64,000 nt of DNA, from NCBI GenBank assembly GCA_023374045.1, contig CM041776.1, forward strand, positions 43,406,171 to 43,470,170. The letters are read 5' to 3'. Source of the stretch: Limonium bicolor (lineage: Eukaryota; Streptophyta; Magnoliopsida; Caryophyllales; Plumbaginaceae). The notes beneath the pieces are model-generated. The model saw nothing but the letters and a program-made list of their open reading frames with translations. It did no database searches and had not been told where the DNA came from. The position numbers and the translations under genes are program-made. Of the stretch, positions 1 to 63,625 are shown piece after piece. Each line of letters starts with the position of its first letter. Within the stretch, counting starts at the first letter, position 1.

Positions 1-687
1 GACATCACCAACTACGACTACACCAACAAACAGTGTCAGGTCATCCGACCAGGTATGATTTTATTAAGGGGATACCTGACACCCGAAGCGCAAATCTCAA
101 TCATCCGACGATGCAACGAGCTAGGAACGGGTCAAGGTGGATTTTACACACCCGAATTCCCCGGTGGAGCGAATATGAAGCTGAAGATGATGTGCTTGGG
201 AAAGGACTGGAATCCTTATACCAAGACATACCAGGAGACACGAACACAAGACGGAGCGACGCCACCGACAATACCACCAGAGTTTCAGACCCTCATCACT
301 CAAGCAGTTGAACTTGCACAACAATGTGAATCTGAACCAATCCCCGCACTTGAAGCGGACCTTTGTATCGTCAACTTCTATGAGAAAGAAGGACGACTTG
401 GGTTACACCAAGACAAGGACGAGACAGCGGAATCTCTTGAACAAGGAGTGCCCGTAGTGTCTTGGTCCATTGGTGATGACGCCGTATTCCTGTATAGCGA
501 GAAGAAGCGTGTGGACCTCGCACAGAAACTGGTATTGAGATCAAGAGATGTCCTAATCATGGGTGGAAACTCTAGGATGCTGTATCACGGGATCAACAAG
601 ATCAAGTTGAATACGGCACCGCCGGCAATAATCAATGCCACACACATGAAACCAGGACGCCTGAACCTTACCTTTAGAAAGTATTAA
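1..687 (+). CDS. AlkB-like 2OG-Fe(II) dioxygenase ORF of retroelement A (5' end outside window)
   Basis: Uninterrupted frame, already open at the window edge; the first Met is at 55, giving 210 residues. Counting from it, the family's catalytic set is present: NFY at 107-109, the iron ligands of HQD (H118, D120) and H178 in YHG, and the C-terminal R-x-N-x-T-x-R (R202, N204, T206, R208) that binds 2-oxoglutarate. The N-terminal part (GGFYTPE, MMCLGKDWNP) looks like plant ALKBH1-type proteins. Known family members oxidatively remove methyl groups from DNA or RNA bases; the substrate here is unknown. The TAA at 685-687 matches the family's natural C-terminus (TFR-K-Y). Only that stop separates it from the pol frame, which is in the same register. 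The upstream frame matches the inferred spliced AlkB exon of element B, so the protein probably begins as a Gag fusion rather than at Met55. The ORF is intact, unlike the copy at 15940. Confidence 0.88.
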   Translation, partial: DITNYDYTNKQCQVIRPGMILLRGYLTPEAQISIIRRCNELGTGQGGFYTPEFPGGANMKLKMMCLGKDWNPYTKTYQETRTQDGATPPTIPPEFQTLITQAVELAQQCESEPIPALEADLCIVNFYEKEGRLGLHQDKDETAESLEQGVPVVSWSIGDDAVFLYSEKKRVDLAQKLVLRSRDVLIMGGNSRMLYHGINKIKLNTAPPAIINATHMKPGRLNLTFRKY

Positions 688-738
688 TTCCTAGTATCAT
701 GTAATCTATTAGTAACGTGTATTAGAGGCACGACATGT

Positions 739-2700
739 ATGATTGGTTTATCAATAAAGAGCAGTGTTGATTTAATTCCACTTGTGTCCACCATCAATAC
801 TTATCCAATTGTGAATCCAATAGGTTGTGGACTCGGTACCGAAGGTAACCTGAGCATCCTCACCGAAGCACAAGCCGGCAGAAGCGGCACCATCTTAACG
901 GGAACCTTCCCAGTAAATGGCATTGATGCCAATGTGCTATTCGACTCCGGCGCCTCTCACACCTTCGTATCACCATCCTTCGTGAAGAGGTTGAAGCTAG
1001 ATGCGGATGAGCTACCGAACTTCATGGTTACTCTCCCATCGAAGGAGCGAGTAAAGTGCACCAAATACTATCAATCAGCCACAATCCAAATCAAAGGCAA
1101 ATCGTTTCCCCTTTCCTTCATCGAATTCAATGGATTGGGATTCGACGTAATCATTGGAATGAATTGGTTGGAGCGGCACAAGGGTAGAATCCTCTGCGCC
1201 GAGCATCGTTTGCTGCTCAAGAGTCCTTCTGGGGTGACCGTATCTTACCGCCAGAGACCGAGAGAGCCTTCGACCACCCTCATATCTGCCATGGCTATGT
1301 ACCGGGAGCTTAGAAAGGGCCAAGAAGTGTATCTGTGTTATGTGCAAGACCTGGAGAGAGATCCAGAGTTCAGTGACGATGTACCTATTGTATCTGAGTA
1401 TCCCGATGTATTCCCTAAGGAGCTACCCGGCATGCCACCACCGAGAGCAGTGGAATTTGAGATTGATCTATTGCCAGGTACCGGTCCCATTGCTAGGGCA
1501 CCGTACCGTATGGCACCTGCTGAAATGACCGAGTTGAAAGAACAGTTGAGAGACCTTCTAGACAAAGGGTTTATACGCCCGAGCGTATCACCCTGGGGAG
1601 CACCGGTTCTCTTCGTGAAGAAGAAGGACGGTAGCCTCCGCCTATGCATTGACTACCGCGAGCTGAATGCGGTCATAGTCAAAAACAAGTACCCCCTACC
1701 GCGTATCGACGATCTATTCGACCAGTTGAAAGGAGCCTCAGTCTTCTCCAAGATCGACCTCCGTTCAGGGTACCATCAGATTGCAATCAAAGAACAAGAC
1801 ATTGAGAAAACGGCATTCCGTACCAGATATGGCCACTACGAATTCACAGTGATGCCATTCGGGTTGTCAAATGCACCGGCAAAATTCATGGACCTCATGA
1901 ATCGACTATTCAGTGAGCAGTTGGACACTTCGGTTGTGGTCTTCATCGACGACATCCTTGTATATTCTAAATCACCAGAGGAACATGAAATTCACTTGAG
2001 GAAAGTGCTTGAGACACTGCGCGAGAACCAGCTTTATGCGAAGTTCTCCAAATGCGAGTTTTGGCTTGATCAGGTATCATTCCTCGGACATGTCATCTCG
2101 AGCGCAGGTATCTCGGTGGACCCTTCTAAGATAGAAGCTGTACGATCATGGCCTAGACCCAAGACTGTGACCGACATTAGGAGCTTTCTTGGTCTAGCCG
2201 GTTACTACCGGAGATTCGTAAGGGACTTCTCGAAAGTCGCCAAGCCCATGACTACACTGATGAAGAAAGATGCACCGTTTGTATGGACAGACGAGTGCGA
2301 GATATCATTTCAGAAACTGAAAGACTCATTGACCTCAGCGCCCGTCCTTACTCTTCCAGAGGGCACAGAGGGATTTGAGGTGTACTGTGATGCATCAGGC
2401 AAAGGAATGGGATGCGTGCTCATGCAGCATGGCAAGGTTGTTGCTTATGCCTCCCGCCAGCTGAAGAAACATGAGGAGAATTACCCGACTCACGACTTAG
2501 AGTTAGGAGCCATTGTCTTCGCCTTGAAGATATGGCGACACTATCTCTATGGGGTAAGCATCACCATCTACTCCGATCATAAGAGCTTACAGTATGTATT
2601 CACTCAGAAAGAACTCAACTTGAGACAGAGAAGGTGGATGGAGTTTCTCTCAGACTACGACATCAACCTGCAGTATAAGGAAGGGAAGGCAACATCGTAG
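739..2700 (+). CDS. pol: Ty3/gypsy pol, part 1: protease, reverse transcriptase, RNase H (element A)
   Basis: 653 residues from the ATG at 739, although the frame is open back to the AlkB stop at 687. Conserved similarity to element B starts at about 824, just after an AG that looks like a splice acceptor, so the first ~28 residues may not be translated. Domains in order: aspartic protease with [10 protein letters not shown] near residue 70; reverse transcriptase with [29 protein letters not shown] and the catalytic FIDDILVYS; connection with [11 protein letters not shown]; RNase H with [30 protein letters not shown] and SDHKSL. The frame ends at a TAG at 2698-2700 caused by one missing base near 2688-2692 relative to element B; homology continues at once in another frame. 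The break is either real decay or an assembly indel. Confidence 0.93.
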
Positions 2701-4202
2701 CCGACGCCCTGAGCCGTCGAGCACACTCGCTCCATTCGCTACTCGCTTCTTCTAGCTTGGTTGACGAGGTGCGAGATGCTCAGTTGAGTGACCCTTACCT
2801 AACCGAAATCAGACACAAGATCGAGAATGGTACATTTGAGAAGAAAAAGTGTGATTTTAAGCTACATGAAGATGGTTTGATTCGGTTGAACGGCAGGCTA
2901 TGCGTCCCCCGAAGCAATGCCGAGCTAAGGGATCGCATCCTGCGAGAGTCACATAGTTCTACATTATCAGTCCATCTGGGAGCCTCTAAGATGTACAAAG
3001 ACATGAAGAGGTACTTCTGGTGGTCTGGAATGAAGTCAGATGTGACAGAATTTGTATTGAGATGCTTAACATGCCAGAAGGTAAAATTCGAACACCGTAG
3101 ACCGGGCGGAATGGTACAATCAATGCCAATTCCGGAGTGGAAATTTCATGATATCTCCATGGATTTTGTTGTAGGACTCCCACCTGCTAGGGGAGGACTC
3201 AACATGATCTGGGTTGTAGTAGATCGCCTTACCAAGGTTGCCAGATTCGTACCGATGAAGGACACCTGGAAGGTAGTGAAGCTAGCTGAGCTTTTCGATA
3301 AGGAGATTATCAGACACCACGGAGTCCCTAAGACCATAGTATCTGACCGCGACACCAGGTTTCTTTCGAGATACTAGAGAGCTACAAGGGAAGCGTTGGG
3401 TACAGAACTGAAGTTGAGTACCGCCTTCCATCCTCAGACCGACGGTCAGACAGAAAGGACCATCCAGACACTAGAGGACATGCTTCGGGCATGTGCCTTG
3501 GACTTTCAGGGGAGTTGGTTAGATAAGCTTCATCTTATCGAGTTCTCGTATAATAATAGTTATCACACCTCGATTAAGATGTCGCCTTTCCAAGCTCTAT
3601 ACGGTAGACCTTGCCGTACACCCTTGTGTTGGGATGAGTCAAGTGAAGCGGTCATAATAGGACCGGAGTACCTTGAGCAAGTGCAAGCCGAAGTGCAACA
3701 AATCCGAGCTAACATGAAGGCAGCCCAAGATAGACAGAAATCCTATGCGGATGTGAGACGACGCGACCTTGAGTTCGCCGTGGGCGACCAAGTGTTCTTG
3801 CGAGTTTCACCTATGAAGGGTGTCTTCCGTTTTGGTCAGAAGGGCAAGCTAAGCCCAAAGTTTGTAGGGCCGTACACTATCACCGAAAGAGTTGGTTCAG
3901 TAGCCTACAGGTTAGCACTACCTGAGGACTTGGGACGTGTCCATGATGTATTTCATGTGTCACAACTCAAGAAGTATATGGCTGATCCTTCTCATGTGTT
4001 GGAGCCCGAGAGACTATCCATTGAGCCAAACATGAGATATGTCGAAACCCCAGTGAGAATCCTTGATAGGAAGACCAGAGACACTCGCCATAAGTTTATA
4101 CGAATGGTGAAGGTCCTATGGTCTAACCATGATGTCGAAGAAGCGACATGGGAATTGGAAGATGCCATGAAGGCTAAATACCCGCAGTTATTCATAGACT
4201 AG
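2701..4202 (+). pseudogene. pol: Ty3/gypsy pol, part 2: integrase and chromodomain (element A), one nonsense codon
   Basis: Continuation of pol after the frameshift near 2690. It holds the HHCC zinc finger (ending CLTCQKVK), the DDE core (D in [10 protein letters not shown] in VSDRDTRF, E in [14 protein letters not shown]), the GPY-like module (KFVGPYTI) and a C-terminal chromodomain (KVLWSNHDVEEATWELEDAM). The chromodomain places the element among chromoviruses; in this group the domain guides integration to marked chromatin. A TAG at 3375-3377 replaces the Trp codon found in element B, so the frame is split into 2757-3377 and 3396-4202, both in one register. Apart from this and the upstream indel the sequence is well preserved. 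The stop codon at 4200-4202 is natural and is shared in position with element B. Confidence 0.9.
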
Positions 4203-4225
4203 AGAGTCTAGTATTTAGTATACGG

Positions 4226-4257
4226 GTACGGGTCGTACCCCTTTTAAGGGGGGTAGA
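4226..4257 (+). promoter_or_regulatory. Hairpin followed by a second polypurine-tract-like motif
   Basis: GGTACG-GGT-CGTACC is an inverted repeat followed at once by TTTTAAGGGGGGTAGA, nearly identical to the true polypurine tract at the LTR edge about 400 bp downstream. The same pair occurs just after pol in element B (20239-20272) and on the minus strand at 45393-45426. Its role is unknown; a second plus-strand primer is one possibility. Confidence 0.6.
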
Positions 4258-4620
4258 ACCCTTTGCTTTAGCATTGCTTCGGGGTAAGCATTGCATTTTT
4301 TATGGCACATGTAGTGCAAGTGAACTTAGTATGGATGTATTTTGTATGTGTAATGGGTAATGAATGATGTGTATGTGCAATGTATGGTGTATTGGTGTAA
4401 TATGTATTGTGGATTGTAATGTGTATTGTGAACTGTAATGGTGTATTGTGTATTGTGGTATGGTATGAATGAGAATGATGGATTGTGTATATGAATTGTG
4501 TATGATGCGTGAAGTGTTTTTGCAATGTGGAATGAAGTAAACACCTCATAGGTGTAGTAAGACACATTAGGGCAATTGATTTGCCTAATGAGTAGAATAA
4601 TGAAACTATTAACCTTGAGC

Positions 4621-4655
4621 AACTTTGAGGGCAAAGTTTCTTAAGGGGGGTAGAT
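4621..4655 (+). promoter_or_regulatory. Polypurine tract of element A with preceding hairpin
   Basis: TTAAGGGGGGTAGAT directly abuts the LTR start TGAAATACCCC, the expected position of the plus-strand primer. It is preceded by a stem AACTTTG / CAAAGTT with loop AGGG. The stem sequence changes in compensating fashion in the other elements. Confidence 0.85.
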
Positions 4656-10805: not shown

Positions 10806-13727
10806 CTGCTAAAAACTGCAACTTAGGTGATTTTTCAACCCCAAATCAACCCTTAATCCACCTCCAATCATTCCATAATCTTTCCACATATTTCCTACAT
10901 GTTTAAACACCTTAAAACACTCCTTAAACCACCTCAAATCCTTGGTCCAATCCTTGCTCAATACTTGCTTAAGTTCTACATTTTCATTCTTGCATTTTTA
11001 CACTTTGCACACTTGTGCATTCCTAACTTCCTCTTGGTGGGTTACTACCCTCTACCAACCTCACCAAATTACTTATTGACCATTACAATTCCATCCTAGA
11101 CAAATGCACTACCTATAATCAAGTCAAATCTCCATCTTCAAGATTGCAAACACTAACTCTTTTTCTTGAAATTCCAAGGTCTTTATAACCCATTTTGCTA
11201 CAGATTTTTCTCACTACTTTACTTACCTCTAAAATAGCTCCTAAGGGGTTGGCTAACCAAATTGGTTTCTCTCCAAACACCAAGTTAACCCTTGGTCATT
11301 TCCTTACCCACTATACACTTAAATTTCCTTCGGTTTCTACCGAAATTTCGCCATAGTTTGCCTACAATCCTAGCATTCCCAAATGCATTACCTTCATCTC
11401 TCATCTCTAAATTCATTCACAACTATCCACACCCAAAGGGGTCCTACCAGCACACATTTAACCATTCAAAATTCATCCATAATCCTCCAAACACAATACC
11501 AATACATACTCAAATCACTTGGCTTCACGGCCCATGAATTACAACCACTTCACAATTTTCTCATACTTCAACCAAGTACATTCCTAACAAGGTTTTGGTT
11601 TCATTCATTTAATTAAGTTTCCCATCCCAAAGTTCAAAAGCAATTAAGATAGTCCTTAAGGCAAACCATTTACCTTAAGCTTCCAAGTTCCCTTTTCACT
11701 TCCTTTCTCTTCCTCCTTGACTCATGCTCTATCCTTTCTTCTTGTTTCTAGTTTCAAAATCGGCCAAGCTACAGCCATTACCCAAGGATACACAACAATA
11801 CTAATCAATCTCCAATTCTTGAATTAAACCCTAGAATTCCAAGAGAATGTTGAAGCTCAAAATGAGGAGTTACCTTCCAATCTCTAGTTGAAGTGTTTGC
11901 TAATAGAGCAACAATATTCCAGCTCCCAAATTGAAGCCAAACCGGCTGGAACAAGGGCAATAATGGGCTCAAACTCTAGAATTTCGGTAGTCAAAGAAAG
12001 GCTAGAAAATGAGGGTTTTTGAACTACTTTCTTACCTTAACCAACAAAGGAGTTGAATGAGCTAACAATGGTGTTCTTCAAGCCTTCAATGAGCTTCACC
12101 CATGGAGATGAAAGTGGTGATTTTCGAATTTTGAAAGGATGGGAATGTGCTCCCAGATGAGAGGAATCTAGTGGTGTAATTATTTTTGTATTTCAACCAT
12201 GTTTAAGGCATGAAAATGGGAGAAGGAGAGAGGGCTGGTGTGAGCTTGTGGAATCGCCATTGTATGGCTGGGAAGAAGATGAGTTCAGAAGTAGAGGAGG
12301 GAGTACGTGAGACACAAGAAAGAATAGGAGAGAGAGTATAAAAGGTGAGCTTTGTACTTTATTTTACTTTTTACTTTGTTGACTTTTCAACTCTTCCTTT
12401 TTAGCTAGGTGAGAGTGTGAGTGAGGGCTGTTTAACAATTAAAAACTGGCTCACATATATTGTACAAGCTGGAGCGTTTTTCGTCTTTTACAGAAACGCT
12501 CGTTATTTTACCGGTTTTAGCACTATTCACTAACCGGGCCCGTTTTCCGGAATTTTCTCGTTTCTTTATTTTCAATGGCTATTAAGCTCCGTTAATGTTT
12601 ATTTATAGTTATTTTATGAACTATAATTTTTACGGGTTCGTTTGGCCACTTAAAGTCACGTTTTCGGGTTTTCTCGAAAAACGTGCGCTAAAGCTTTATT
12701 AGCGTTTTTAATTCATTATTTGGATCCGTTTTCATCGGGAATTATTCCCATATATTATTTAGGCATTACTAAGCCTTTTAAATTAATTTAATACCCTCTC
12801 TAAGGTCATTTTCTTCTTACGGTCGCTTAACGTTCAATTTAGCGTTTTTCGCTTTTTAAGCGTTTTTCTTATTTCTTTTGGATTTATTCTGTTTATCAAA
12901 ATTCCTTAGGCACTAATAGGCCATCAATACCGTATTAGAGTAATTTAATCACCCCAATTAAGTCCGGGGTATTTCACGAGGCAAGGACCAAGGTATGGTT
13001 TTCTTGCAGTCTGTTGCCTACCGGTTTACACCGGCTTGTGTGTTGTTTGTTTTTCTGTGTGTTTATGACTTTGTAAGATTAAACCATGTAAAGAGTTTAC
13101 CGTTGTTAAATATCATATGTTGTTGAGTATGACTCTCTCTTCCCTTGTGTGTGTCTAACAAGACTTGACCTATGATTGTGAAGTGTTTGTTGTGTTCAAT
13201 GATGAACTACTAACAAGGGCTAACGGGGGAAGTGAGGAGTCCGGTCTGTTCCGGCCACGCGTGTGAGTATGGGAGTCGATGTCATAACCGGTTCGATTCT
13301 CTCTGTATGTTATGGTTAAGTTTCCAATTTGGTTTCTAACCTTCCCTTTAGCTTAACCAAGGCTATTTTACTGACTCACGTCGGGCCACAGGGGCATACT
13401 ATGTGTTTTGTTTCGGTGTGCTTGGATCACTATATCCGAGGCACCTTGTGTTAAGTTAACCGTTCAATCTAACCGGACGGTAACGAGTTATGTAACGAGC
13501 TAAGTATGAGCATGGCAACATTCTCTAAGCTCTCAATGGGGACTAACTGTGTTGGTTCTCTTCCTAAAAGGAATTGTATGTTTGTGATGTGTGTTATGTG
13601 TGTACAATACCTGTGTTATGTTATATATGTATGTGTGTGTTTTAAAATAAATACCATGTCATCATGACAATTGGTTGCGCGTATCCCGGTAGCCGATGGG
13701 CTGCGCGTTAGCCATACCAGCAAAGGT

Positions 13728-13763
13728 GCTGACCCCCTCGGGGGCTCCATATTTTTATTGCAG
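13728..13763 (+). promoter_or_regulatory. Conserved LTR hairpin and AG acceptor (element B 5' LTR)
   Basis: GCTGACCCCCTCGGGGGCTC followed by a T-rich tract and ATTGCAG|GATGAGG. Identical in the 3' LTR at 24009-24044. Likely 3' splice site of the leader. Confidence 0.6.
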
Positions 13764-14009
13764 GATGAGGATCGAAGAAGAGAGTGGCTCTAGATCCTAG
13801 AGAGTAGTTTACTTTTGGAGTACTTTTGGATGTTGCCCGGGTTGCGCCTGTGCTCCCGTGGCGTATTATATACTTGTTTTGTGATGGTTTACAGTGAGTA
13901 TACAGTGAAGGATTTAGTAAATACTCGGTATTATGTTGATGTATATATATGGTTGTTAGTTCTATGCTCGGGAGTCTGATCATCAGACCGGTACAATTGT
14001 ATTTATTCA

Positions 14010-14046
14010 GCCTTGTTAGCCACGTGGGTGGTTGACGGCATTGTAG
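14010..14046 (+). promoter_or_regulatory. Terminal LTR hairpin (9-bp stem, loop GTGG)
   Basis: GTTAGCCAC / GTGGTTGAC with loop GTGG, followed by GGCATTGTA and about 80 nt later by the LTR end. Other LTRs in the window keep the stem with different bases. Confidence 0.7.
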
Positions 14047-14133
14047 CACCAATCGTTTAGTTACCGTTTAGTTGTTTATTTTCCGCTGCGATTCCAAGTA
14101 TAGTTATGTGCGTAGTAGGGGTGTTACAAAAAG

Positions 14134-14145
14134 TGGTATCAGAGC
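14134..14145 (+). promoter_or_regulatory. Primer-binding site, tRNA-Met type
   Basis: TGGTATCAGAGC, the complement of the 3' end of plant initiator tRNA-Met, five bases (AAAAG) after the LTR end at 14128. It primes minus-strand synthesis and fixes the 5' LTR boundary. Confidence 0.92.
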
Positions 14146-14346: not shown

Positions 14347-15805
14347 ATGGCAGGTAGACCACGAGGAGAGGCCGCGGGCGCGGTACTGGAGGTATGGGTG
14401 ACCAGGATGATGATACTACGGCACAGACCATGGCTGAGGCAGTTGCAGCCGCCGTAGCTCAGCTGGTACCCGACTTAGTTGCTGCTATACAGCAAGGGCG
14501 ACAGCCTGGAGTTCAGCCACCACCACCACCGCCACGAGAGACCAATTGGGTCAAGGCGTTGGCTGATCTGAGGCCGCCCTCATTCAGTGGGGAGACCGAT
14601 CCCCGTAAGCTCGAGGCATACATCTCCGAGATGGAGACCGCCTTCGAAACCCTAGCACCACCTGAGCAGGTCAAGGTACGACTTGCTGCTTACTACTTGA
14701 AGGGCTCGGCACAAAACTGGTGGAAGCTTGTGCGCGAGGGTAGAGTTGCTGACCCGACGTTTCAGTGGAGGGAGTACACGGCTCTGCTGCGAGCCAAATA
14801 CTACCCTATACATGTGCAAGAGGCCAAGCGCCTGGAGTTGGACAATCTGAGACAAGGGGATAAGATGACGGTAGATGAGTACTACTCAGCCTTCATCGGA
14901 CTTATCCACCTGCTACCGGATCTGGGTTACTCAGACCGGATCCTTGTGAACCGTTTCTACAACGGACTGAACTATCGCCTACGCTACGGCATGGGGCCTA
15001 CTGGATATACCACCTTGCAGGTAAAGGAATTACAGTGTAATGTGAATAAGTGTGTACAATGTGTTAATGTGATGTGAGTTTATTTGGCGGGGCATAACTG
15101 ACACCCTAAATATAGGAGTGCTATCATGCCGCTGCTATTGTGGAGATCACCGTCCGTCTGAGGGACGAGGAGAGTGCGCTCAAGCGCAAGGCTCAGAACG
15201 AGGGCCAAGGCACGCAAGGGCAGTGGGGAGGGAAGAAGAAGAATCATACCCCAGTCCCAGAAAGGACAGCAACAGGGTGGCAAGGGCCAGACCCAGACCA
15301 CCACTGCTGAGGAGCCTCTGCAGCTCACCTATGCGTATGCGGCCAAGCCCCTACGTTCTTACCCACCTAAGGGTAATTGTCTAATCCTGTGTGATAAGTT
15401 AGAGTATATGTTAATAAGTTGGAACAAGTATTGATGTGTATTGTGATAGCAGCTGGCACGGGCTCTGGACCGGAGCGCCACTATTACTGCAAGTGGTGCA
15501 ACGGAGACCACCCCGGCAAGGACTGCAAGGGTAACGATGTTCAGTGCCGATACTGTAAGAAGATGGGTCACCGCGATCATGAATGTTGGCAGAACCCAAA
15601 CAGTAGGAACTTCAGGCCCAAGGGGCAATGGAAGGGTAAGGCCACTGCGACCACCGATGGCCAGAAGACGGCAAACCAGCCACCCCCAGATCAGAGGTAC
15701 ACGGAGTCCCAGAAGGGGAAGGGGTCGGGGTCCAACAAGGCCACCCTGAATGTGGTGGACCGGTCTGAGGCGCCAGGGCCCTCTTCTAGACCAGGTACCG
15801 CCTAA
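14347..15805 (+). CDS. gag: gag: capsid and nucleocapsid, interrupted by introns (element B)
   Basis: Best start is ATG 14347 (MAGRPRG), but one indel near 14360-14366 shifts into the main frame, where a second ATG lies at 14394. Exon 1 (to 15020) has an acidic N-terminus, a PPPPPP stretch and a retrotransposon Gag domain (YLKGSAQNWW, YYPIHVQEAKRLEL, DEYYSAFIGL). Exon 2 (15116-15372) is basic and Gln/Gly rich and has one apparent indel near 15250. Exon 3 (from 15450) carries two CCHC zinc knuckles (CKWCNGDHPGKDC and CRYCKKMGHRDHEC) that bind RNA. If intron 3 is retained, translation stops at 15803-15805; if it is spliced at 15795, the frame continues into AlkB or pol. Gag packages the element RNA in cytoplasmic particles. 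Exon phases match at both internal junctions. Confidence 0.85.
15021..15115 (+). other. Putative intron 1 of gag (95 bp)
   Basis: GTAAAG at 15021 to TATAG at 15115. Removal joins ...YTTLQ to ECYHAAAIVE at a codon boundary (phase 0). Unspliced RNA hits a stop at 15077 and loses the zinc knuckles. Confidence 0.7.
15373..15449 (+). other. Putative intron 2 of gag (77 bp)
   Basis: GTAATTG at 15373 to GTGATAG at 15449. The exon ends after codon position 1 (G) and the next begins CA, giving Ala in the frame of the zinc knuckles. AT-rich against GC-rich exons. Confidence 0.72.
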
Positions 15806-15939: not shown

Positions 15940-16675
15940 GAACTTTCAATATATGTTATCCAATCCCACCCACACCAAACCCTGAAGAAACCACCATCAA
16001 CATCACCGACTTTCCATTGGAGCAATGTCAGGTCATCCAGCCAGGTATGATACTTCTAAATGGATACCTGACACCGGAGGCACAAATCCATATCATCAGA
16101 CGATGCGACGAACTTGGAGCAAAACCAGGAGGGTTTTACACACCCGAATACCCGAACGGAGCAAGGATGCAATTGAAGATGATGTGCATGGGTAAGGACT
16201 GGAACCCTTACACCAAGTCATATCAAGAAGTTCGAGCTGAAGATGGAGCAACAGTATCAAGTATACCAGAGGAGTTCCATGCGGTCGTTAACCACGCCGT
16301 GGGAATTGCTCACAAGTTGAAACGGAATCAATTCCAAGTGTAAAAGCAGATCTATGCATTGAACTTCTACCAGAAAGGTGGACGGTTAGGTATACACCAA
16401 GACAAGGACGAGTCACCCGAGTCTCTAAGTAAGGGAGTACCCGTGGTGTCTTGGTCCATTGGTGATACCGCAGTATTTGTGTATGGCGAGCAGAAGCGTG
16501 CTGACCTCGCAAAGAAGCTACTGCTGAAATCGGGAGATGTACTAATCATGGGTGGACAAGCAAGGATGCTATACCACGGCATCAGAAAGATCAAACTGAA
16601 TACCGCACCGTCGGCAGTGATCAATGCCACACACATGAAACCCGGACGTTTGAATTGACCTTCAGACAGTTTTAA
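15940..16675 (+). pseudogene. AlkB-like 2OG-Fe(II) dioxygenase ORF of element B, broken by indels
   Basis: About three quarters of the N-terminal residues match the copy at 1-687, from MILLNGYLTPEAQ through GGFYTPEYPNGA and MMCMGKDWNPY. The second half keeps the H-x-D of HQDKDE, the second His in YHG and the RLN...TFR C-terminus. Three small breaks are visible: near 16318 and near 16363 (the frame resumes within NFYQ) and a missing base near 16655. There is no TATA-like or host-gene context: it lies between gag and pol as in element A. The stop TAA is at 16673-16675. Upstream of Met 16047 the frame is open to the proposed acceptor at 15939, adding a Pro/Thr-rich linker. Since indels are also over-represented in this element's LTRs, the breaks may be assembly errors. 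Confidence 0.8.
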
Positions 16676-16850: not shown

Positions 16851-19800
16851 GCTGTGCACTCGGAACGGGAGGTATACTGAGTGTCTGCAATAAGGCAGAA
16901 GCCGGCAAGAGCGGCACAATCCTCACCGGTACCTTTCCAGTGAATGGCGTGGATGCATCGATCTTGTTCGACTCTGGAGCCTCACACACATTCATTTCGC
17001 TATCATTTGCGAAGAGGCTGGGGTTAGATGGTGAAGAGATGCCAGACTTCGTGGTTACTCTCCCGTCGAAAGAGCGGATCAGATGTACCCGCTACTACCG
17101 AGGTGCTATTGTACAAATCAGGGGTGAAGAGTTTCCGATCGACTTGATAGAGTTCGACGGACTAGGCTTTGATGTGATTGTCGGGATGAACTGGTTGGAG
17201 CGGCACAAGGGCAGAATCCTGTGTGCCGAGCATCGACTGCTTCTTCGGAGTCCATCTGGGGTTACCATATCTTACCGCCAGAGGCCCAGGGAGCCTTCGA
17301 CAGATCATCACCGCCATGGCTATGTATCACGAGTTACGACGAGGGAGTGATGTATACCTCTGCTATGTCCAGGACATAGAGAGAGACCCTGAGTTTAGCC
17401 CAGATGTGCCGGTAGTGTCGGAGTTTCCTGATGTATTTCCTAAGGAACTGCCGGGCATGCCGCCAGCACGAGAGGTTGAGTTTGAGATTGATCTAGTTCC
17501 GGGCACCGGACCCATTGCAAAAGCACCTTACCGTATGGCTCCAGCAGATGACAGAGCTCAAGGAGCAGCTGAGAGACCTACTCGACAAGGGCTTTATCCG
17601 CCCTAGTGTTTCACCATGGGGAGCGCCGGTCCTCTTCGTGAAGAAGAAGGACGGTAGCCTCCGCCTATGTATTGATTATCGGGAGCTGAATGCTGTTACG
17701 GTGAAGAACCGTTACCCCTTACCACGCATCGACGATCTATTTGATCAGCTGAGGGGAGCATCAGTATTCTCCAAGATAGACTTACGTTCCGGATACCACC
17801 AGATTGCCATCCGAGACAGTGATATAGAAAAGACAGCCTTCAGAACTAGGTATGGGCATTATGAGTTCACAGTTATGCCGTTTGGCTTGTCAAATGCACC
17901 AGCAAAGTTCATGGACTTAATGAACCGTTTGTTCCAAGATCAGTTGGACAAATCAGTGGTAGTCTTCATCGATGACATACTTGTGTATTCGAAATCGAGA
18001 GGTGAGCATGAAAGCCACCTGAGAGATGTATTGCAGACATTGAGAAAGAATCAGTTGTATGCTAAATTTTCTAAGTGTGAATTTTGGTTGAACCAAGTAT
18101 CATTCCTTGGACATGTGATTTCTGAGGCCGGGATCGCTGTTGATCCGGCAAAGATAGATGCAGTGCGCACCTGGCCTAGGCCGAAGACAGTTACCGACAT
18201 CAGGAGCTTCCTCGGTCTGGCAGGTTACTATAGGAGATTTGTGAAGGACTTCTCCAGTGTCTCGAAGCCGATGACTTCCTTGATGAAGAAGGATGCACCA
18301 TTCGAGTGGACAGTCGACTGTGAGAGCTTTCGCGAGTCTCAAGGATGCTCTGACATCTGCACCGGTTCTGACATTACCAGACGGTCCAGATGGTTTTGAG
18401 GTCTACTGCGACGCATCAGGCAGAGGTATGGGTTGTGTGTTGATGCAACACGGGAAGGTCGTAGCTTACGCCTCCCGACAGCTGAAGAAGCATGAGGAGA
18501 ACTACCCTACCCACGACTTAGAATTGGGGGCCATTGTCTTCGCACTGAAGATATGGCGACATCACTTGTATGGGGTAAGTGTGACGATCTATTCTGACCA
18601 CAAGAGTTTAAAGTACTTGTTCACTCAGAAGGAGTTGAACATGAGGCAGAGAAGGTGGGTTGAGTTTCTGAATGATTATGACATCAATTTACAGTACAAG
18701 GAGGGTAAGGCAAATGTGGTAGCTGACGCATTGAGTCGCCGAGCACACTCTCTCCATTCGCTAGTCTCTCATACTGGCTTGGTTGAAGAGGTGCGGAGTG
18801 CTCAGATGACGGATCAGTACATGATGGAGATTAGACAGAAGCTTATTGATGGCACATTCGAGGGTCAGAAGTACGACTTCAGACTCCACGATGATGACCT
18901 GATTAGGCTTAATGGCAGATTGTGTATACCCAGGAGTAGCGCTGAGTTGAAGGAGCGCATATTGAGTGAATCCCATTGTTCTACTACTTCGATTCACCCC
19001 GGAGCTTCAAAGATGTATAAAGGTATGAAAAGATACTTCTGGTGGGCTGGAATGAAAAAGGATGTGAATGACTATGTGTTGAGGTGTCTCACTTGTCAGA
19101 AGGTCAAGTTTGAGCACCGACGGCCTGGTGGTATGGTGCAGCCAATGCCAGTGCCGGAGTGGAAGTTCCATGACATATCTATGGACTTCGTAGTAGGGCT
19201 TCCGCCTACAAGGGGAGGTCTGAATATGATTTGGGTAGTAGTTGACCGACTGACCAAGGTGGCCCGATTCATTCCGATGAAGGACACCTGGAAAGTGGCA
19301 AGATTGGCAGAACTATTCGATAAAGAGATTGTTAGACATCATGGTGTACCAAAGACGATTGTATCCGACAGAGATACCAGATTCTTATCCAGATATTGGA
19401 AGTCTACACGAGAGGCATTGGGTACTGAACTGAAATTGAGTACGGCGTTTCACCCACAGACCGATGGTCAGAGTGAGCGCACCATTCAGACACTTGAGGA
19501 TATGCTACGAGCATGTGCACTTGACTTTCAGACCAGCTGGATTGATAAGTTATATCTGATCGAGTTTAGTTACAACAACAGTTATCATGCGTCGATCAAG
19601 ATGTCTCCCTTCCAGGCATTGTACGGTAGACCATGCCGCACGCCATTATGTTGGGATGAGTCGAGTGAGACGGTCATTATAGGACCAGAGTATCTTGAGC
19701 AAGTTCAGGCAGAAGTTCGCCAGATCAGGGATAATATGAAAGCAGCTCAGGATAGGCAGAAGTCGTACGCAGATGTGCGCCGACGTGACCTGGGTTCGCT

Positions 19801-20223
19801 GTGGGCGATCAGGTATTTTTGAGAGTATCCCCATGAAGGGAGTGTTCGTTTTGGCCAGAAAGGCAAGTTGAGCCCAAAGTATGTGGGGCCTTATGTTGTG
19901 ACGGAGCGGATCGGCCCGGTAGCTTATAGACTTGACTTACCCGCCGAGCTGGGCAAGGTACATGATGTATTTCATGTGTCCCAGTTGAAGAAGAGTATAT
20001 GTCTCATCCGTCTCATGTGCTTCAGCCTGAAAGGCTAACTTTAGAGCCGACCATGCGATCAGTGGAGACTCCGGTACGGATTCTGGACACTAAGACTCGA
20101 GACACTCGCCATAAGTCTGTGAGACTGGTGAAGGTTCTCTGGTCTAACCAGGACGTTGAGGAGGCCACTTGGGAGCTGGAAGATAAGATGAAGGCGAAGT
20201 ACCCGTCGTTGTTTACTTCGTAG
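16851..20223 (+). pseudogene. pol: Ty3/gypsy pol with several frameshifts (element B)
   Basis: Protease ([12 protein letters not shown]), reverse transcriptase ([26 protein letters not shown]), RNase H ([16 protein letters not shown]), integrase (CLTCQKVK; D in [10 protein letters not shown] in VSDRDTRF, E in [11 protein letters not shown]) and chromodomain (KVLWSNQDVEEATWELEDKM), in the same order as element A. Register changes are visible near 17300, 17545, 18330, 19795 and at several points between 19830 and 20000; the longest open stretch is 18293-19822. No premature nonsense substitution was found: the breaks are short indels. In element A the Trp codon at 3375 is TAG, but here it is intact. 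The pol would be made as a Gag-Pol fusion if the 15795 donor joins the 16850 acceptor (phases agree). Confidence 0.9.
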
Positions 20224-20541: not shown

Positions 20542-23500
20542 TGAAATACCCCAAACCTAGTTATGTTGTTTAAACACCTAAATAGGGTGTAATAAGACTA
20601 AAAAGAGTCTTAGAAACCTTAGTAAACAAATTTAAACAAAAGGAAACACAAATGTGCTTTAAAATCAATAAGAGCTAAAATGTGCTCTAAGCTTGGGATA
20701 AACTTGGGTAAGGCCTAATGAGCTTACCAAGACCCCATTTATATACTAATGAACATATTAAACCAATTACCAAAGAAAACCAAGCTTGAAAACAAGTTAA
20801 AACACAAATGTGCTTTAAGAAGTCTTAAAGCACGTTTTTGAAAAATTGTCTTGTAAATGAGTTTTGAATGGCTAAATGTCCATCATTACTCTTAAATATA
20901 TATGTGTACTATATAGTATCACATTTGGGTGGCTATATTAATGGGAAATCAAAAATTTCACTTCTAAGTGCCTTGTTTAGGTGAATAGTACTTTTTATAA
21001 GCTAGTTTATAACATATGTTGTATTAAGTAATTAAATTGACAAACAAAGACTAAAACACCCTCACACTAATAAAGGGGGCCGGTTTTCATAAGTGTGTGA
21101 CTCACCACTCTCTAGTTGATATTATAAGTATGTAAAGAAAACTAAGTAAACTTACTTTTTACTTTATAAACATAAATATCTCCTAAAAGCAAGTTCTATC
21201 TTCATTCTCATTTCTTTCCTTCATTCCCACGGTTTGCAAACACCTCTCTTCTTCCTTCTTCCTTGTTCTCTCTCGGTAATACCACTATCACCATGGAAAC
21301 TCCCACTTTGACCACTTGTTAAATCTTGCTCATTTGTCCAAATCAAAAACAAACACCACCAATCTCTTCCTCTCATAAAGCTCTTCATTCCTATCTTCTC
21401 AAAACTCCAAGAGCTCCATTTCGGTGCCAAGGTGTTCCACCATTGAAGGAGCTTGAGCTTGTATTTTGACATATTATTACTCTCCTTTGCTTCTAGGTAA
21501 GGAATCTCAAAGAAAAATCATGTTTCCTCCTTGTTTTTGTCATGTCCGAAAATACACATTGATATAGCTCCTTGTGTGACTTTGTTCTAGCTTCATTGCA
21601 ACTCTTCATGGACTAGGTGGAGTCCTCTCTTGTATATATTCAAACTCTCTTCAAAGATCAAGGTAAAACAACTACATTAATGTTTTTGAAACAATGTCAA
21701 ATTAGGGTTTACAATGAGATGAAGCCTATAGCTTGATTACTCATTATGATGTTTGTACATTGTCTAGAACTTGACAAGGAATCAAAATACCATACGGTTT
21801 TGTAAGGAAAAGAAGGAAGTGTTGGAAAAAGAGGTAAATCTACTAACTTAAATGTTGTTTAATGCCTTAGGAGAAATGAGCTTATAAATGCTTATTAAAA
21901 CTACCTAAAGAGCAAATGGTGAATGACTTAGTAAAGTGTTCTCAAGAGACTAGTAAAGGGCATATGTGTGTGTTGAGTGTATTTGCAGGTTAAAGGCATA
22001 TATTGTGGAAATTCAGTGTTTATGATTTAAGCACTTTAAGGGCCTAAGAGCCATGCATTTTAAGGGCCTAAGTGCCATGCAATTTAAGTTATGCACTATA
22101 TTGTGATGTAGTGTGAATTTGGTGAAGTTGTATAGGAAGGTGTTCTTGGTGTTCTTAGTGTTCTAGGATGTTTAATGATGAAAGTAATGTGCTAAGGTGT
22201 AACAAAATGCTAGGAGAAACTATGTCGAAATTTAGAAAATGCATAAGGAGTTCAAGATGTTGTAAAGGAATTTTGATGAACTAGGAGGTGTTCTAGAGTG
22301 TAATAAGGACTTAGGCATGATCTTGAGGTTTTAGTATGTACCAAAGTCATTTTGGACTTAGGTAAGACTTAGGCAAACTTTGGTAAAATAAGGAGAAAGT
22401 GTAAACTTGGAAAAGAATTGTCAAGATGGATATAAGGAGTTAGTTGTGAGAGATGATGCTTGGGAGATGATGTTAAAATAAGGAGAAAGCATTTTGGGAT
22501 AGTAGTTATCATAGGTATGAAACACCACTTGGAAATTAGGAGAAAACATTGTAAGTGTTAGGAATTTTGTGAAGAAAAGAGTAAAGGCTTAAGGAATTAG
22601 AAAATGAGTTTTATGAGTGTTTAAGGATGTCTTAAGGTGTGTTAAAGTGCCCAAATGAGGTTAGGGGGTACTAGGTTATATGGGGTGAAGTTTGGAGTTG
22701 AATGTGAAAAGGAAAACAAAGGTCTGGGGCAGACCGAACTTGCGACCGAACTTGCAAGTTCGGTCGAGCCCAGTTTACCCTGCGAGAATTGGCTTCTGGA
22801 AAAGGCCGACCTTGGGGACCGGACTTGCAAGGTCGGTCGGGCTTGTATTTTGTGTACGGATTGAGTTACTGGAACCGACCGAACATGGGACCGGACCTGG
22901 TAAGTTCGGTCGGGCTAAATTTACAAAGGGGAGAAACTCTCGGGAAAAGGCCAAACATAGGACCGGACTTGATAAGTTCGGTCGGAGTAGAAAATTTTGA
23001 CGGAAATGTGTTCTGGAATCGACCGAACTTGGACAAGTTCGGTCGGCAAGGTCGGTCGGACCAAAACTTGTAAAAAAAAAACAGAAAAGAATGTGACTTA
23101 TGTAGTTAACCCTAGGGTGTATAATGAAGGTAACCTAGGGTAAGATAGGCATTAAAACATGTCATACAATCATGTAAATACTTAGTAAGTTTGAAGTTAA
23201 ATAATAATTAACCGACATTACTAATGTGTTTAGGATTCTCTCAAGGTGGAAATCAGTCGAGGCAAGGACCAAGGTATGGTTTTCTTGCAGTCTGTTGCCT
23301 ACCGGTTTACACCGGCTTGTGTGTTGTTTGTTTTTCTGTGTGTTTATGACTTTGTAAGATTAAACCATGTAAAGAGTTTACCGTTGTTAAATATCATATG
23401 TTGTTGAGTATGACTCTCTCTTCCCTTGTGTGTGTCTAACAAGACTTGACCTATGATTGTGAAGTGTTTGTTGTGTTCAATGATGAACTACTAACAAGGG

Positions 23501-24412
23501 CTAACGGGGAAGTGAGGAGTCCGGTCTGTTCCGGCCACGCGTGTGAGTATGGGAGTCGATGTCATAACCGGTTCGATTCTCTCTGTATGTTATGGTTAAG
23601 TTTCCAATTTGGTTTCTAACCTTCCCTTTAGCTTAACCAAGGCTATTTTACTGACTCACGTCGGGCCACAGGGGCATACTATGTGTTTGTTTCGTGTGCT
23701 TGGATCACTATATCCGAGGCACCTTGTGTTAAGTTAACCGTTCAATCTAACCGGACGGTAACGAGTTATGTAACGAGCTAAGTATGAGCATGGCAACATT
23801 CTCTAAGCTCTCAATGGGGACTAACTGTGTTGGTTCTCTTCCTAAAAGGAATTGTATGTTTGTGATGTGTGTTATGTGGTGTACAATACCTGTGTTATGT
23901 TATATATGTATGTGTTGTGTGTTTTAAAATAAATACCATGTCATCATGACAATTGGTTGCGCGTATCCCGGTAGCCGATGGGCTGCGCGTTAGCCATACC
24001 AGCAAAGGTGCTGACCCCCTCGGGGGCTCCATATTTTTATTGCAGGATGAGGATCGAAGAAGCAGAGTGGCTCTAGATCCTAGAGAGTAGTTTACTTTTG
24101 GAGTACTTTTGGATGTTGCCCGGGTTGCGCCTGTGCTCCCGTGGCGTATTATATACTTGTTTGTGATGGTTTACAGTGAAGTATACAGTGAAGGATTTAT
24201 GTAAATACTCGGTATCATGTTGATGTATATATATGGTTGTTAGTTCTATGCTCGGGAGTCTGATCATCAGACCGGTACAATGGTATTTATTCAGCCTTGT
24301 TAGCCACGTGGGTGGTTGACGGCATTGTAGCACCAATCGTTTAGTTACCGTTTAGTTGTTTATTTTCCGCTGCGATTCCAAGTATAGTTATGTGCGTAGT
24401 AGGGGTGTTACA
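20542..24412 (+). repeat. 3' LTR of element B (3871 bp)
   Basis: Starts TGAAATACCCC at the polypurine tract and ends GGGGTGTTACA. The TTTATAAACATAAATA box near 21162 is followed by a CT-rich stretch, the likely promoter and start. Donor-like sites lie at 21497, 21663 and 21834, with an acceptor-like TTTGTTCTAG ending at 21590; a hairpin array at 22732-23061; then the blocks shared with the 5' LTR. About 92% similar at the 5' end to the minus-strand solo LTR at 59789-63625, but with a different hairpin word. Confidence 0.93.
22732..23061 (+). repeat. 72-bp hairpin array, word GACCGAACTTGC
   Basis: Five units near 22732, 22805, 22876, 22949 and 23020. The first unit is word, word, inverted word (GCAAGTTCGGTC), as in element A but with AA for GG in the core; later units vary (GACCGGACTT, CCGACCTTG). 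The linker has TTCTGGAA. A ten-A run follows. Confidence 0.9.
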
Positions 24413-59788: not shown

Positions 59789-62700
59789 TGTAACACCCCT
59801 ACTACGCGCCTAACAATAAATACAGTCGCAGCGGAAATGACCAACTAATCATCAACTAACAAATTGGTGTTACAACGCCGTTAACCACCCACGTGGTTAA
59901 CTAGGCAGAATAAATAACAACGTATCGGTCTGATGATCAGACTCCCGAGCATAGTAACTAACATCCATATATATAAACATAACCGACAATACCGAGTATT
60001 TAATTTACAATCATTACCAAACCATAATCATCCATAGCTGTATAACAAGGTATCAACATGTACGCCTCGGGAGCACAGGCGCATCCCGGGCTCAACAACC
60101 TACTTAACCAAAAGTATATCTACCGCCTAGGACCTAGAGCCACTCAGCCTCTTCGATCCTCATCCTGCAATCAAATAAATATGGGGCCCCCGAGGGGGTC
60201 AGCACCTTTGCTGGTATGGCTAACGCGCAGCCCATCGACTAACGGGATACGCGCAACCAATTGTCATAATAACATGGCATTCATTTTAGAACAACCAACA
60301 TATATATACACATATACCGTAGCATAGCAAGGGAAATTGCATAGCATCACATCATCAATACATCACCACAAGAACGGTTCACATGAAGATCCTTCCACCA
60401 CAGTTAGTACATACCATGAGCATAGAGATTGTTGCCAAACTCACCCAAGCTCGTTAATTACCTCATCACCATCCTGTTATTTGAACGGTTGACTTAAACC
60501 CAAGGTGTGTCGGATATAGTGATCCCAAGCACACCAAACAACACAGTATGCCCCTATGGCCCGACGTGAGTCAGTAAACTAGCTTTGGATAAGCTAAGGG
60601 AAGGTTGAAACCAAATTGGAATACCACCTAAACATACACCTAGGGAGCCGAACTGGATATGATAACGACCCCCATCCATCACACGCGTGGCCGGAAAATA
60701 CCGGACTCCTCACTCCCCCCGATTAGCACTTGTTAGTGAACACACAACATTTGTCAAGTCACATACAAGCAACATTTAGGTCTTGTTAGACACACCAATG
60801 GAGAGGAGTCATAATAGCACAACACCATAATATATAACAACTGTAAACTCTTTTCATGCTTTAATCTTATAAGGTCGTAAACACTCAGAAAACAACCAAC
60901 ACCCAAGCCGGTGTAAACCGTTAGGCAACAGACTGCAAGAAAACCATACCTTGGTCCTTGCCTTGTTTCGTTCCCACCTTGAGAGAATCCTATACACATT
61001 AGTAAGGTCGGTTAATTAATTATTTAACTTCACACTTACTATATATTCAACATGCTTGTATGACATGTTCTAATGCCTATCTTACCCTAGGTTACCTTCA
61101 TTATACAACCTAGGGTTAACTACATAAGTCACATTCTTTTCTGTTTTTTTTTTTTTACATGTTTTGGTCCGACCGACCCACCGTCCGACCCACAACTGGG
61201 TCGGACCCTCCCAGTGGTCTTCGGGTCTGAAAAACTTTACCTTGACCGACCCACGTCCGACCCAGCCTTCTGGGTCGGTCCATTACAGAAACCCTTTTGC
61301 CTCCTTATAATCATGCTCGTCCGACCCACGTCCGACCCACCATTCTGGGTCGGTCCATGTGCGAACATTTTCCTTCCTTTGAAACTTGCCCGACCGACCC
61401 ATGTCCGACCCAACCTTCTGGGTCGGTCCATTACCGAACATTTTCCTAACATTTTACAGAGGCTCGACCGACCCAAAAACTGGGTCGGCCCCTGGGTCGG
61501 TCGCCTCCTAAACATACCCAAACTTTGTCAATTCTTCACCAAACTTCTCCTAAGGCCTCTTAATGTTTCCTAACAACTTTTGGTAACCTTACATTCACAT
61601 ACAACACCCATGAAACTCATTTTCTAATTCCTTGAATCATTTACTTATTTCCTTGTAAAAATTCCTTAACACTTATGTTATTTTATACTAGGTTCCTAGA
61701 TGGTATTTCTCACCTATGGTAACTACTATCCCAAAATGTTTTCTCACCACTACAACATCATCCCTAAAGCATTATTTCTCACCAACCTAAACTCTAGTTA
61801 ATGTCTAAGTCCTTTTGTTTACCTAGAACACTCTAAGACATAGTTTCTCCTCTAGTAACACCTAGTCATTTTCTAACATCTCTAGTTCACCAACCCTTGC
61901 ATTAATACCTAGAACTCCTTAGATATTTCCTAAATTTTGACATGGGTTCTCCTAGAACATTACTAAGCCTAAACACTTTGTTTTCTTCATGAAACACACA
62001 AGATCATCTAAAATCATCAAGAACACTCACATACATAATTTCACCAAATTTACACCACATTACAACATAGTGCACAATATAGTTTGCATGGCACTTAGGC
62101 CCTTAAAATGCATGGCTCTTAGGCCCTTAAAATGCTTAAATCATAAACACTGAATTTCCACAATATATATGCCTTTAACCTGCAAATACACTCAACATAC
62201 ACATATGCCCTTTACTAGTCTCTTGAGAACACTTTACTAAGTCATTCACCATTTGCTCTTTAGGTAGTTTTAATAAGCATTTATAAGCTCATTTCTCCTA
62301 AGGCATTAAACAACATTTAAGTTAGTAGATTTACCTCTTTTCCCAAAACACTTCCTTCTTGATTCCTTATAAAACCATATGGTATTTTGGTTCCTTGTCA
62401 AGTTCTAAACAATACAAACACCATAATGAGTATTCAAGCTTTAAGCTTCATCTCATTGTAAACCCTAATTTGACATTGTTTCAAAAACATTAATGTAGTT
62501 GTTTTACCTTGTTCTTTGAAGAGAGTTTGGATATACAACAAGAGAGGACTCCACCTAGTCCATGAAGAGTTGAAATGAAGCTAGAACAAAGTCACACAAT
62601 GAGCTACATCAATGTGTATTTTCGGACATGACAAAAACAAGAAGGAAACTTGATTTTTGTTTGAGATTCCTTACCTAGAAGTAAAGGAGAGTAATAATGT

Positions 62701-63625
62701 GTAGAAATCCAAGCTCAAGCTCCTTCAATGGTGGAACACCTTGGCACCGAAATGGAGCTCTAGGAGTTTTGAGAAGATAGGAATGAAGAGCTTGATGAGA
62801 GGAAGAGATTGGTGGTATTTGTTTTTGATTTGGACAAGTGAGCTAGATTTAGCAAGTGGTCAAAGCTTGTGTTTCAATGGTGGTGGTGGTTTATCGTGAG
62901 AGAACAAAGAAGAAGGGAGAAGATGAGTGGGAAACCGTGTGAGCAAGGAAAGGAAATGAGAGAATGAAGATAGAATTTGCTTTAAGAGATATTTATGTGT
63001 TAAAAGGTAAAAAGTAGTTTATTTACTTATCTTATCTTACTTAATACATTAATAAGAGAGTGGTGAGTCACCAAGCCTTAGAAAACCGGCCCCCTAAGTA
63101 TAATGAGGGTAATATAGTCTTTGTTTGTCAATTTAATTACTTAATACAACATATGTTACAAATTAGCTTATAAAAAGTACTATTCACCTATACAAGGCAC
63201 ATAGAAGTGAAATTTTTGATTTCCCACTAATATAGCCACCCAAATGTGATACTATATAGTACACATATATTTAAGAGTAATGATGGGCATTTAGCCATTC
63301 AAAACTCATTTACAAGACAATTTTTCAAAAACGTGCTTTAAGACTTCTTAAAGCACATTTTGTGTTTTAACTTGTTTTCAAGCTTGGTTTTCTTTGGTAA
63401 TTGGTTTAATATGTTCATTAGTATATAAATGAAGTCTTGGTAAGCTCATTAGGTCTTACTCAAGTTTATCCCAAGCTTAGAGCACATTTTAGCTCTTATT
63501 GACTTTAAAGCACATTTGTGTTTCCTTTTGTTTAAATTTGTTTAGTAAGGTTTCTAAGACTCTTTTTAGTCTTAATATATCATGTTTTAGTGTTTAACCA
63601 ACATACCAAGGTTTGGGGTATTTCA
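59789..63625 (-). mobile_element. Minus-strand solo LTR (3837 bp), element B family with a different hairpin cassette
   Basis: Runs from TGTAACACCCC to GGGGTATTTCA with a perfect CCCAT duplication. Both ends and most of the body match the LTR of element B at roughly 90% or better, including the CGCGTAGTAGGGGTG end, the GATTGCAG|GATGAGG acceptor (reversed, 60165-60203) and a perfect hairpin GTTAACCAC / GTGGTTAAC (59880-59905). Between about 61160 and 61590 it departs from element B and instead resembles the array region of the solo LTR at 26616. Confidence 0.93.
61166..61503 (-). repeat. Hairpin array, word CCGACCCA
   Basis: Four to five units of about 73 bp (GGTCGGTCC ends near 61271, 61346 and 61419), each with direct CCGACCCA words and an inverted TGGGTCGG. 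A T-run (61146-61157) flanks it, the reverse of the A-run in forward LTRs. Confidence 0.9.

Follow-up and report, generated by a model that had tools for sequence, protein, structure and literature searches.

Two AlkB-bearing retrotransposons in the window

The 64,000-nucleotide stretch of Limonium bicolor DNA analysed here (assembly GCA_023374045.1, contig CM041776.1, forward-strand positions 43,406,171 to 43,470,170; hereafter the window) contains two related Ty3/gypsy retrotransposons, copy 1 and copy 2, each with a gene for an AlkB-type dioxygenase just before pol. From its sequence, this gene very probably belongs to the element as an inherited enzyme gene under constraint, captured from a host ALKBH1-type gene, most likely once. 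Copy 1 enters at the left edge of the window and shows the following features, including open reading frames (ORFs) and the start of a long terminal repeat (LTR).

1..687, + strand: ALKBH1-type AlkB dioxygenase ORF (PF13532, structure 5xeg, catalytic residues, structure model)
688..823, + strand: spacer between AlkB and protease (PR), probable 3' end of an intron with AG at 822-823 (poor conservation, CAATACTTAT common to both copies)
824..2700, + strand (ORF 688-2700): PR, reverse transcriptase (RT) and RNase H (RH) (RVP_2, RVT_1, RT_RNaseH)
2679..4202, + strand: integrase (INT) with SH3 (Tf2-1-like) and a weak chromodomain (CHD) (Integrase_H2C2, SH3_Tf2-1, Chromo)
4643..4655, + strand: polypurine tract (PPT) 5' of the 3' LTR, which begins at 4656 with TGAAATACCCC

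INT itself covers 2679-3377, and the INT C-terminus, SH3 and chromo-like end cover 3378-4202. The pol of copy 1 is broken by a frame change near 2690 and a stop at 3375-3377. Its gag lies outside the window; the order of AlkB followed by pol is visible in copy 1, and the gag side is visible in copy 2 alone.

Copy 2 (12977-24412) is about 74% identical to copy 1, with 73.8% identity between 31-4264 and 16023-20279 in the self-comparison of the window. It has LTRs, a primer binding site (PBS), gag, pol and, at the same place as in copy 1, AlkB.

12977..14128, + strand: 5' LTR with truncated start, pairing with 23258-24412, the last 1155 bases of the 3' LTR
14134..14145, + strand: PBS TGGTATCAGAGC (motif)
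14358..15020, + strand: gag exon 1 (capsid), open part (PF03732, Retrotrans_gag, E = 2.4e-18)
15021..15115, + strand: predicted gag intron 1, 95 bp, GT..AG (comparison with the gag relative P0241 and further relatives)
15452..15794, + strand: gag exon containing two CCHC-like zinc knuckles, recognised by eye; candidate donors at 15531, 15555, 15636 and 15795
about 15940..16675, + strand: AlkB exon or ORF interrupted by frameshifts; AG at 15938-15939 preferred as acceptor among several of phase 1
about 16851..20223, + strand: PR-RT-RH-INT-CHD-like pol, frame broken at several places; PR acceptor AG at 16849-16850, phase 1
20542..24412, + strand: 3' LTR, TG...CA, 3.9 kb, preceded by PPT AAGGGGGG at 20529

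The PBS presumably matches initiator tRNA-Met. Apart from the truncation of its 5' LTR, copy 2 displays the Ty3/gypsy order with LTRs, PBS, PPT, gag and PR-RT-RH-INT, the domains being named in copy 1. A first-pass annotation of the sequence had placed AlkB between the expected gag position and pol; this arrangement is seen directly in copy 2, and copy 1 shows its pol side alone. AlkB is carried by both copies whose pol start lies inside the window, with the gag side visible in one, and no third AlkB was found in the window by tblastn with six AlkBs of the element clade described below as queries (E <= 1). Copy 1, with just pol beside AlkB, might also be read as a cellular ALKBH1 retrogene that adjoins pol by coincidence. 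This reading is refuted by copy 2, in which LTR, PBS, gag, AlkB, pol and LTR form one unit, and we give it practically no weight.

The LTRs of copy 2 differ by 5 mismatches in 1148 aligned positions and by 11 gap columns, and copy 2 is hence young. Since gap columns exceed mismatches, part of its frame breaks may be assembly indels. The lineage is apparently chromovirus-like, a placement that leans on a chromodomain match after the integrase scoring 22.6 bits in copy 1 and 17.8 bits in the pol relative P0125, both below the Pfam cut-off of 25.1. We suspect membership of Tekay/Del, with Tekay suggested by its motifs.

An ALKBH1-type dioxygenase

The AlkB ORF of copy 1 (1-687, + strand) consists of 228 codons and a stop, and its left side is open at the window edge. 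The Pfam domain PF13532 (2OG-FeII_Oxy_2) covers residues 18-226 along the complete profile (1-194 of 194) with E = 1.3e-43 and 149.9 bits, against a cut-off of 31.2. The catalytic set comprises H136-x-D138, H196, R220-x-N-x-T-x-R226, N125 and Y127. An AlphaFold model from a 13-row alignment reached a mean predicted local distance difference test score (pLDDT) of 90.8 and a predicted template modelling score (pTM) of 0.88, with pLDDT below 50 only at residues 1-9. The first-pass description of a full, intact ORF with H-x-D, a second His and R-x-N-x-T-x-R hence holds for the catalytic domain, which is complete with these residues present, and fails at the 5' end, which is cut by the window edge.

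Among solved structures, the best match was the rice entry 5xeg (E = 9.4e-71), which we take to be rice ALKBH1. It was followed by E. coli AlkB (8.6e-21) and by the weaker match human ALKBH1 (5.4e-10), and no entry bearing the name ALKBH5 or FTO was among the 23 structure matches at E <= 1. In its deposit, 5xeg is labelled a rice oxidoreductase from the 2OG-Fe oxygenase family. Named plant proteins among the listed matches of the copy 1 AlkB were ALKBH1C, ALKBH1D or abh1-like. The AlkB of copy 2 shares 67% amino acid identity with that of copy 1 over 217 residues (16008-16655, tblastn), and 160 of 225 readable positions are identical in the alignment. By the structure and protein match lists, the element AlkB is assigned to the ALKBH1 subfamily, not to ALKBH5.

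Probable descent with the element

Relatives were collected separately for AlkB, pol and gag. The AlkB search gave 447 proteins at E <= 1e-10 from 681 candidates, the best 120 of which were examined; among the matches listed, P0001, P0003 and P0112 reached 70% identity, P0002 62% and P0004 61%, and the remainder 43-55%. For pol, 7999 of 8000 scored matches reached E <= 1e-50, and again the best 120 were examined, P0125 among them with 75% identity over 91%. The gag search returned a single match at E <= 1e-10 among 1508 candidates, P0241, with 64% identity. The AlkB P0001 and the gag P0241 each lie on a contig of 26621 bases, the AlkB P0002 and the pol P0125 each on one of 26561 bases. Because of these equal lengths, each pair is likely, though not certain, to share one contig. 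The scan of viral contigs yielded two weak AlkB loci (42% over 52 residues) and no pol relative, and none was found in the scan of prokaryote genome contigs.

In a quick AlkB tree of 122 rows, copy 1, copy 2, P0001-P0004 and P0112 formed one clade with support of 98 by the Shimodaira-Hasegawa-like approximate likelihood ratio test (SH-aLRT). A careful tree of 61 rows, a subset chosen by hand with hosts thinned and four of six long-branched rows dropped, recovered the same seven AlkBs with support of 100/100, apart from the host-like rows. Neither tree gives more than weak support to the point at which this clade joins the host rows. Two of the seven were seen in window elements, two are tied to lineage gag or pol by equal-sized contigs, and three by the tree. 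The Fe ligands and the N and Y residues are kept in all seven, copy 2 being kept in register where its frame breaks, and the 2-oxoglutarate (2OG) arginines in all six that reach that far. By the filter applied, eight positions distinguish the clade from the other 115 rows; K169-R170 occurs in 7/7 clade members, whereas the other rows have R at 169 in 101/115 and D at 170 in 98/115. For RT, a tree of 119 rows (the two window copies and those 117 of the 120 listed pol matches with enough RT) grouped copy 1, copy 2 and P0125 with support of 99. As the AlkBs form one clade and the RT clade fits, a single capture of AlkB, with retention afterwards, is most likely. Both trees are consistent with a single capture followed by descent with the element, although a clade of three RT rows tests this only modestly.

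Selection on AlkB

AlkB is clearly under strong purifying selection between the two copies. The ratio of nonsynonymous to synonymous rates (omega) was 0.187 by maximum likelihood, with synonymous divergence (dS) of 1.01 and a likelihood ratio statistic of 74.9 against omega = 1; counting (NG86) gave 0.185 with a bootstrap range of 0.117-0.28. This comparison comprised one pair, copy 1 and copy 2, with 224 codons and 4 dropped. Maximum likelihood values elsewhere were 0.112 for PR, 0.025 for RT/RNase H, 0.038 for INT and 0.020 for the INT end with CHD, at dS of 1.4-3.5; the counting method was saturated for RT, INT and CHD and yielded no value. Synonymous divergence is lower in AlkB (1-687, dS 1.0) than in RT, INT and CHD (1400-4199, dS 2.6-3.5), and four-fold sites are identical at 38/68 on the AlkB side versus 122/315 (Fisher p = 0.010, counts rebuilt from rounded fractions). 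This lower dS may reflect recombination, RNA-level constraint or saturated pol estimates.

AlkB might instead be a chance passenger, a host ALKBH1 transcript picked up by the element and functionless for it, and the broken frames of copy 2, AlkB among them, would fit such a history. The gene nevertheless occupies the same position in two copies that are about 74% identical, at an omega of 0.187, and its seven members form one deep clade, two of them from outside the window having lineage gag or pol on equal-sized contigs. Moreover, the excess of 11 gap columns over 5 mismatches in the copy 2 LTRs points to assembly indels behind part of the breaks. We therefore consider a passenger very improbable. 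Well conserved in two diverged copies and placed just before pol, AlkB gives the impression of a functional component of the element. The first-pass annotation had inferred that this lineage captured a host ALKBH1-like gene, hypothetically to remove methyl marks or alkyl damage from its own RNA or cDNA, and had named a tree and a dN/dS well below 1 as checks. An element gene of plant ALKBH1-like origin is supported by the same place in 2/2 copies, an omega of about 0.19 and one clade, with 100/100 in the 61-row tree. Of the two observations named there as refuting, neither a dN/dS of about 1 nor a copy without the domain was seen, the latter among copies whose pol start lies inside the window.

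Some observations weigh against this reading. The constraint on AlkB is below that on pol (omega 0.187 versus 0.020-0.112). On outside contigs, the linkage of AlkB to lineage gag and pol rests on equal base counts (26621 and 26561), and P0003 (on a contig of 9956 bases), P0004 (1151) and P0112 (814) are tied to the element by the tree alone.

Predicted exons between gag and pol

In copy 2, gag exon 1 reaches the residues TTLQ (15020) and is followed by GTAAAG. P0241 departs from the alignment after TTLQ with a V and ends three residues further on; beyond it 11 of 12 aligned relatives continue, the twelfth showing a gap. Copy 2 picks up again at 15116, in a different frame, with a peptide weakly similar to intronless relatives. 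An intron common to copy 2 and P0241 is hence moderately supported, since both break after TTLQ while their relatives run on.

Further downstream, all four candidate donors with at least 6/9 consensus matches in 15452-15830 are in phase 1. The same phase is found for the preferred AlkB acceptor at 15940, directly 5' of an FDIC-like motif, and for the PR acceptors at 16851 and, in copy 1, at 824. These acceptors were picked where similarity to relatives begins. The FDIC-like motif, located 5' of the AlkB domain, is common to copy 2, P0002 and hosts. Between AlkB and PR, the spacer has 72 identical bases among 133 aligned ones and 45 additional gap columns, compared with 71/85 and 127/177 in the coding flanks. 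The 10-mer CAATACTTAT is kept in the spacer of both copies and ends 17 bases 5' of the AG. These splice-like signals agree in phase, which points to AlkB as a putative alternative exon inside a gag-pol intron. Splicing might then decide the protein product, a Gag-AlkB fusion versus Gag-Pol, a step that we regard as possible but doubtful.

Several features speak against such an exon structure. The similarity of gag exon 2 in copy 2 is weak, at best 16.2 bits, with no match in two of six pairs. Four phase-1 AGs (15922, 15940, 15988 and 16045) lie in the open stretch 5' of the AlkB Met, and several more precede PR in each copy; with such further AGs nearby, a match of splice phase alone is weak evidence. 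The polypyrimidine tract of the acceptor at 15940 is poor, and more than one donor would fit. Finally, the junction from gag to AlkB is visible in one copy, and AlkB could begin at its own ATG (55 in copy 1, 16047 in copy 2).

This last point leads to another way of making the enzyme. AlkB might be produced free, from its own ATG on subgenomic or unspliced RNA, and without fusion to Gag. The Met at 55 and 16047 opens the domain, P0001 and P0003 start there, and the AlkB-family enzyme of an orchid retrotransposon is described as a separate ORF (PMC9289625). However, the same Met is conserved in hosts too, and the host-like FDIC-like motif 5' of it in copy 2 and P0002 suggests a start further upstream. 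We hold production of a free enzyme to be a serious contender, somewhat below an even chance.

We also considered whether ribosomes read through the AlkB stop into PR, as the frame of copy 1 stays open past it. This reading was dropped since the corresponding frame of copy 2 is interrupted by several stops and conservation of the spacer is poor.

Other sequences of the lineage in the window

Besides the two copies, one further LTR was delimited.

59789..63625, - strand: LTR of a third relative, which segments of the copy 2 3' LTR match at 89.7% and 80% identity; its coding part lies outside the window

The 64 kb contain eight LTR-start-like motifs TGAAATACCCC, at 4656, 20542, 26616, 46834 and 58521 on the + strand and at 12976, 44783 and 63625 on the - strand. 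Set against AlkB and pol at two places, these indicate a high local density of the lineage or of LTR derivatives from it, mostly with no coding part in view. At 12966-12977 the truncated 5' LTR of copy 2 adjoins an oppositely oriented LTR-start-like sequence, which suggests a rearrangement. LTRs of the lineage carry minisatellite-like arrays of 71-73-bp units (6542-6845, 22724-23057 and 61244-61447) that have diverged between copies. A tandem array of 28-bp units lies at 9232-9430, an assembly gap of 500 N at 53799-54298, and Rfam at the gathering threshold found nothing in the window.

A possible role in the particle

For the captured and retained enzyme we may propose the following course. 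A plant lineage of chromovirus-like Ty3/gypsy elements very probably captured a host ALKBH1-type dioxygenase and kept it between gag and pol. Gag exons joined to the AlkB exon would give a Gag-AlkB fusion, and gag exons joined past AlkB to the protease would give Gag-Pol, while unspliced element RNA would be packaged. Fused to the capsid and zinc-knuckle protein, AlkB could be carried into the particle and act there on element RNA, single-stranded cDNA or the RNA-DNA hybrid, stripping N-methyl groups: N6-methyladenosine (m6A), N1-methyladenosine (m1A) or 3-methylcytidine (m3C), or N6-methyladenine of DNA (6mA). Such demethylation might let the element escape sequestration that depends on m6A, or lesions at which reverse transcription is blocked. 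Taken as a whole, this scheme, in which alternative gag-pol splicing packages a captured ALKBH1 demethylase in the virus-like particle to edit the element's own RNA, cDNA or hybrid during reverse transcription, is speculative and, in our view, unlikely to hold in every part.

Rice ALKBH1 is described to remove 6mA where it occurs in R-loops or in single-stranded DNA (PMC10469495), nucleic acids that may resemble reverse-transcription intermediates. A Gag-linked ALKBH1-type enzyme would meet such nucleic acids. For plant elements, a review describes that RNA with m6A is sequestered in stress granules and that ALKBH9B relieves this for ONSEN (PMC12786077). Alternatively, the enzyme may repair m1A, m3C or 1-methyladenine (1meA) in damaged genomic RNA or cDNA rather than erase m6A or 6mA, a role of the sort put forward for the AlkBs of plant RNA viruses. 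It belongs to the AlkB/ALKBH1 branch, as E. coli AlkB and human ALKBH1 were matched with no ALKBH5 or FTO among the 23 matches at E <= 1, and PMC9289625 cites RNA repair for AlkBs of viruses. Plant ALKBH1, however, is described as a 6mA demethylase (PMC10469495), and the sequence cannot tell the substrate; we give repair a substantial, if minority, chance. If the capture is real, one enzyme and its natural template would allow a test of whether retrotransposons are held in check by methyl marks of the host or by methyl damage.

Comparison with known systems

The closest described case is Gypsy_Pa_2799 of Phalaenopsis, a Tat/Ogre-like element that carries a paALKBH5-like ORF2 (Alvarado-Marchena et al. 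2022, PMC9289625). There, a 25.5 kb element has a single gag-pol ORF, and its 565-aa ORF2 encodes an ALKBH5-type enzyme that demethylates m6A in vitro (PMC9289625). The screen of 121 genomes in that paper reports no 2-oxoglutarate-dependent dioxygenase (2-ODD) domain in the consensuses of the other genomes. Our literature search, on titles and starts of abstracts and mostly without subscription papers or preprints, found no LTR-retrotransposon AlkB besides PMC9289625 and the papers citing it. The first-pass remark that a chromovirus family with this layout is not known to have been described stands insofar as the layout differs from the orchid case, and has to be narrowed since an AlkB in Ty3/gypsy has a precedent.

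Both the orchid and the Limonium elements are Ty3/gypsy elements with an extra conserved 2OG-Fe(II) dioxygenase of the AlkB family. In contrast to Gypsy_Pa_2799, as far as the available description goes, the dioxygenase here is of ALKBH1 type, pol is chromovirus-like, AlkB lies between gag and PR, and introns are predicted; the orchid layout of an ALKBH5-type separate ORF with an uninterrupted gag-pol ORF is not found in the window elements. The general idea is thus published in PMC9289625, and the ALKBH1-type case, which differs in AlkB subfamily, apparent element branch, position and gene structure, appears to be an independent capture. Compared with plant ALKBH1 (5xeg, ALKBH1C/1D), the element AlkBs share the fold family, the catalytic residues, about 43-55% identity and the upstream FDIC-like motif, yet they form a separate clade (100/100) with K169-R170. 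As in Ogre (Tat), an intron would interrupt the polyprotein region; in Ogre it is spliced from a subset of transcripts (PMC6317226), here it is predicted, and the available part of PMC6317226 mentions no AlkB for Ogre, unlike the window elements.

AlkB domains are also carried by plant Alpha- and Betaflexiviridae and Closteroviridae, as cited in PMC9289625. Likened by description, these too are selfish genomes that acquired AlkB, although they are RNA viruses. If our reading is right, selfish elements would have made nucleic-acid demethylation their tool repeatedly, by capturing AlkB independently and retaining it for long. Plant Ty3/gypsy elements would then have captured AlkB at least twice, as an ALKBH5-type enzyme in the orchid Ogre-like element and as an ALKBH1-type enzyme here, beside the AlkBs of RNA viruses.
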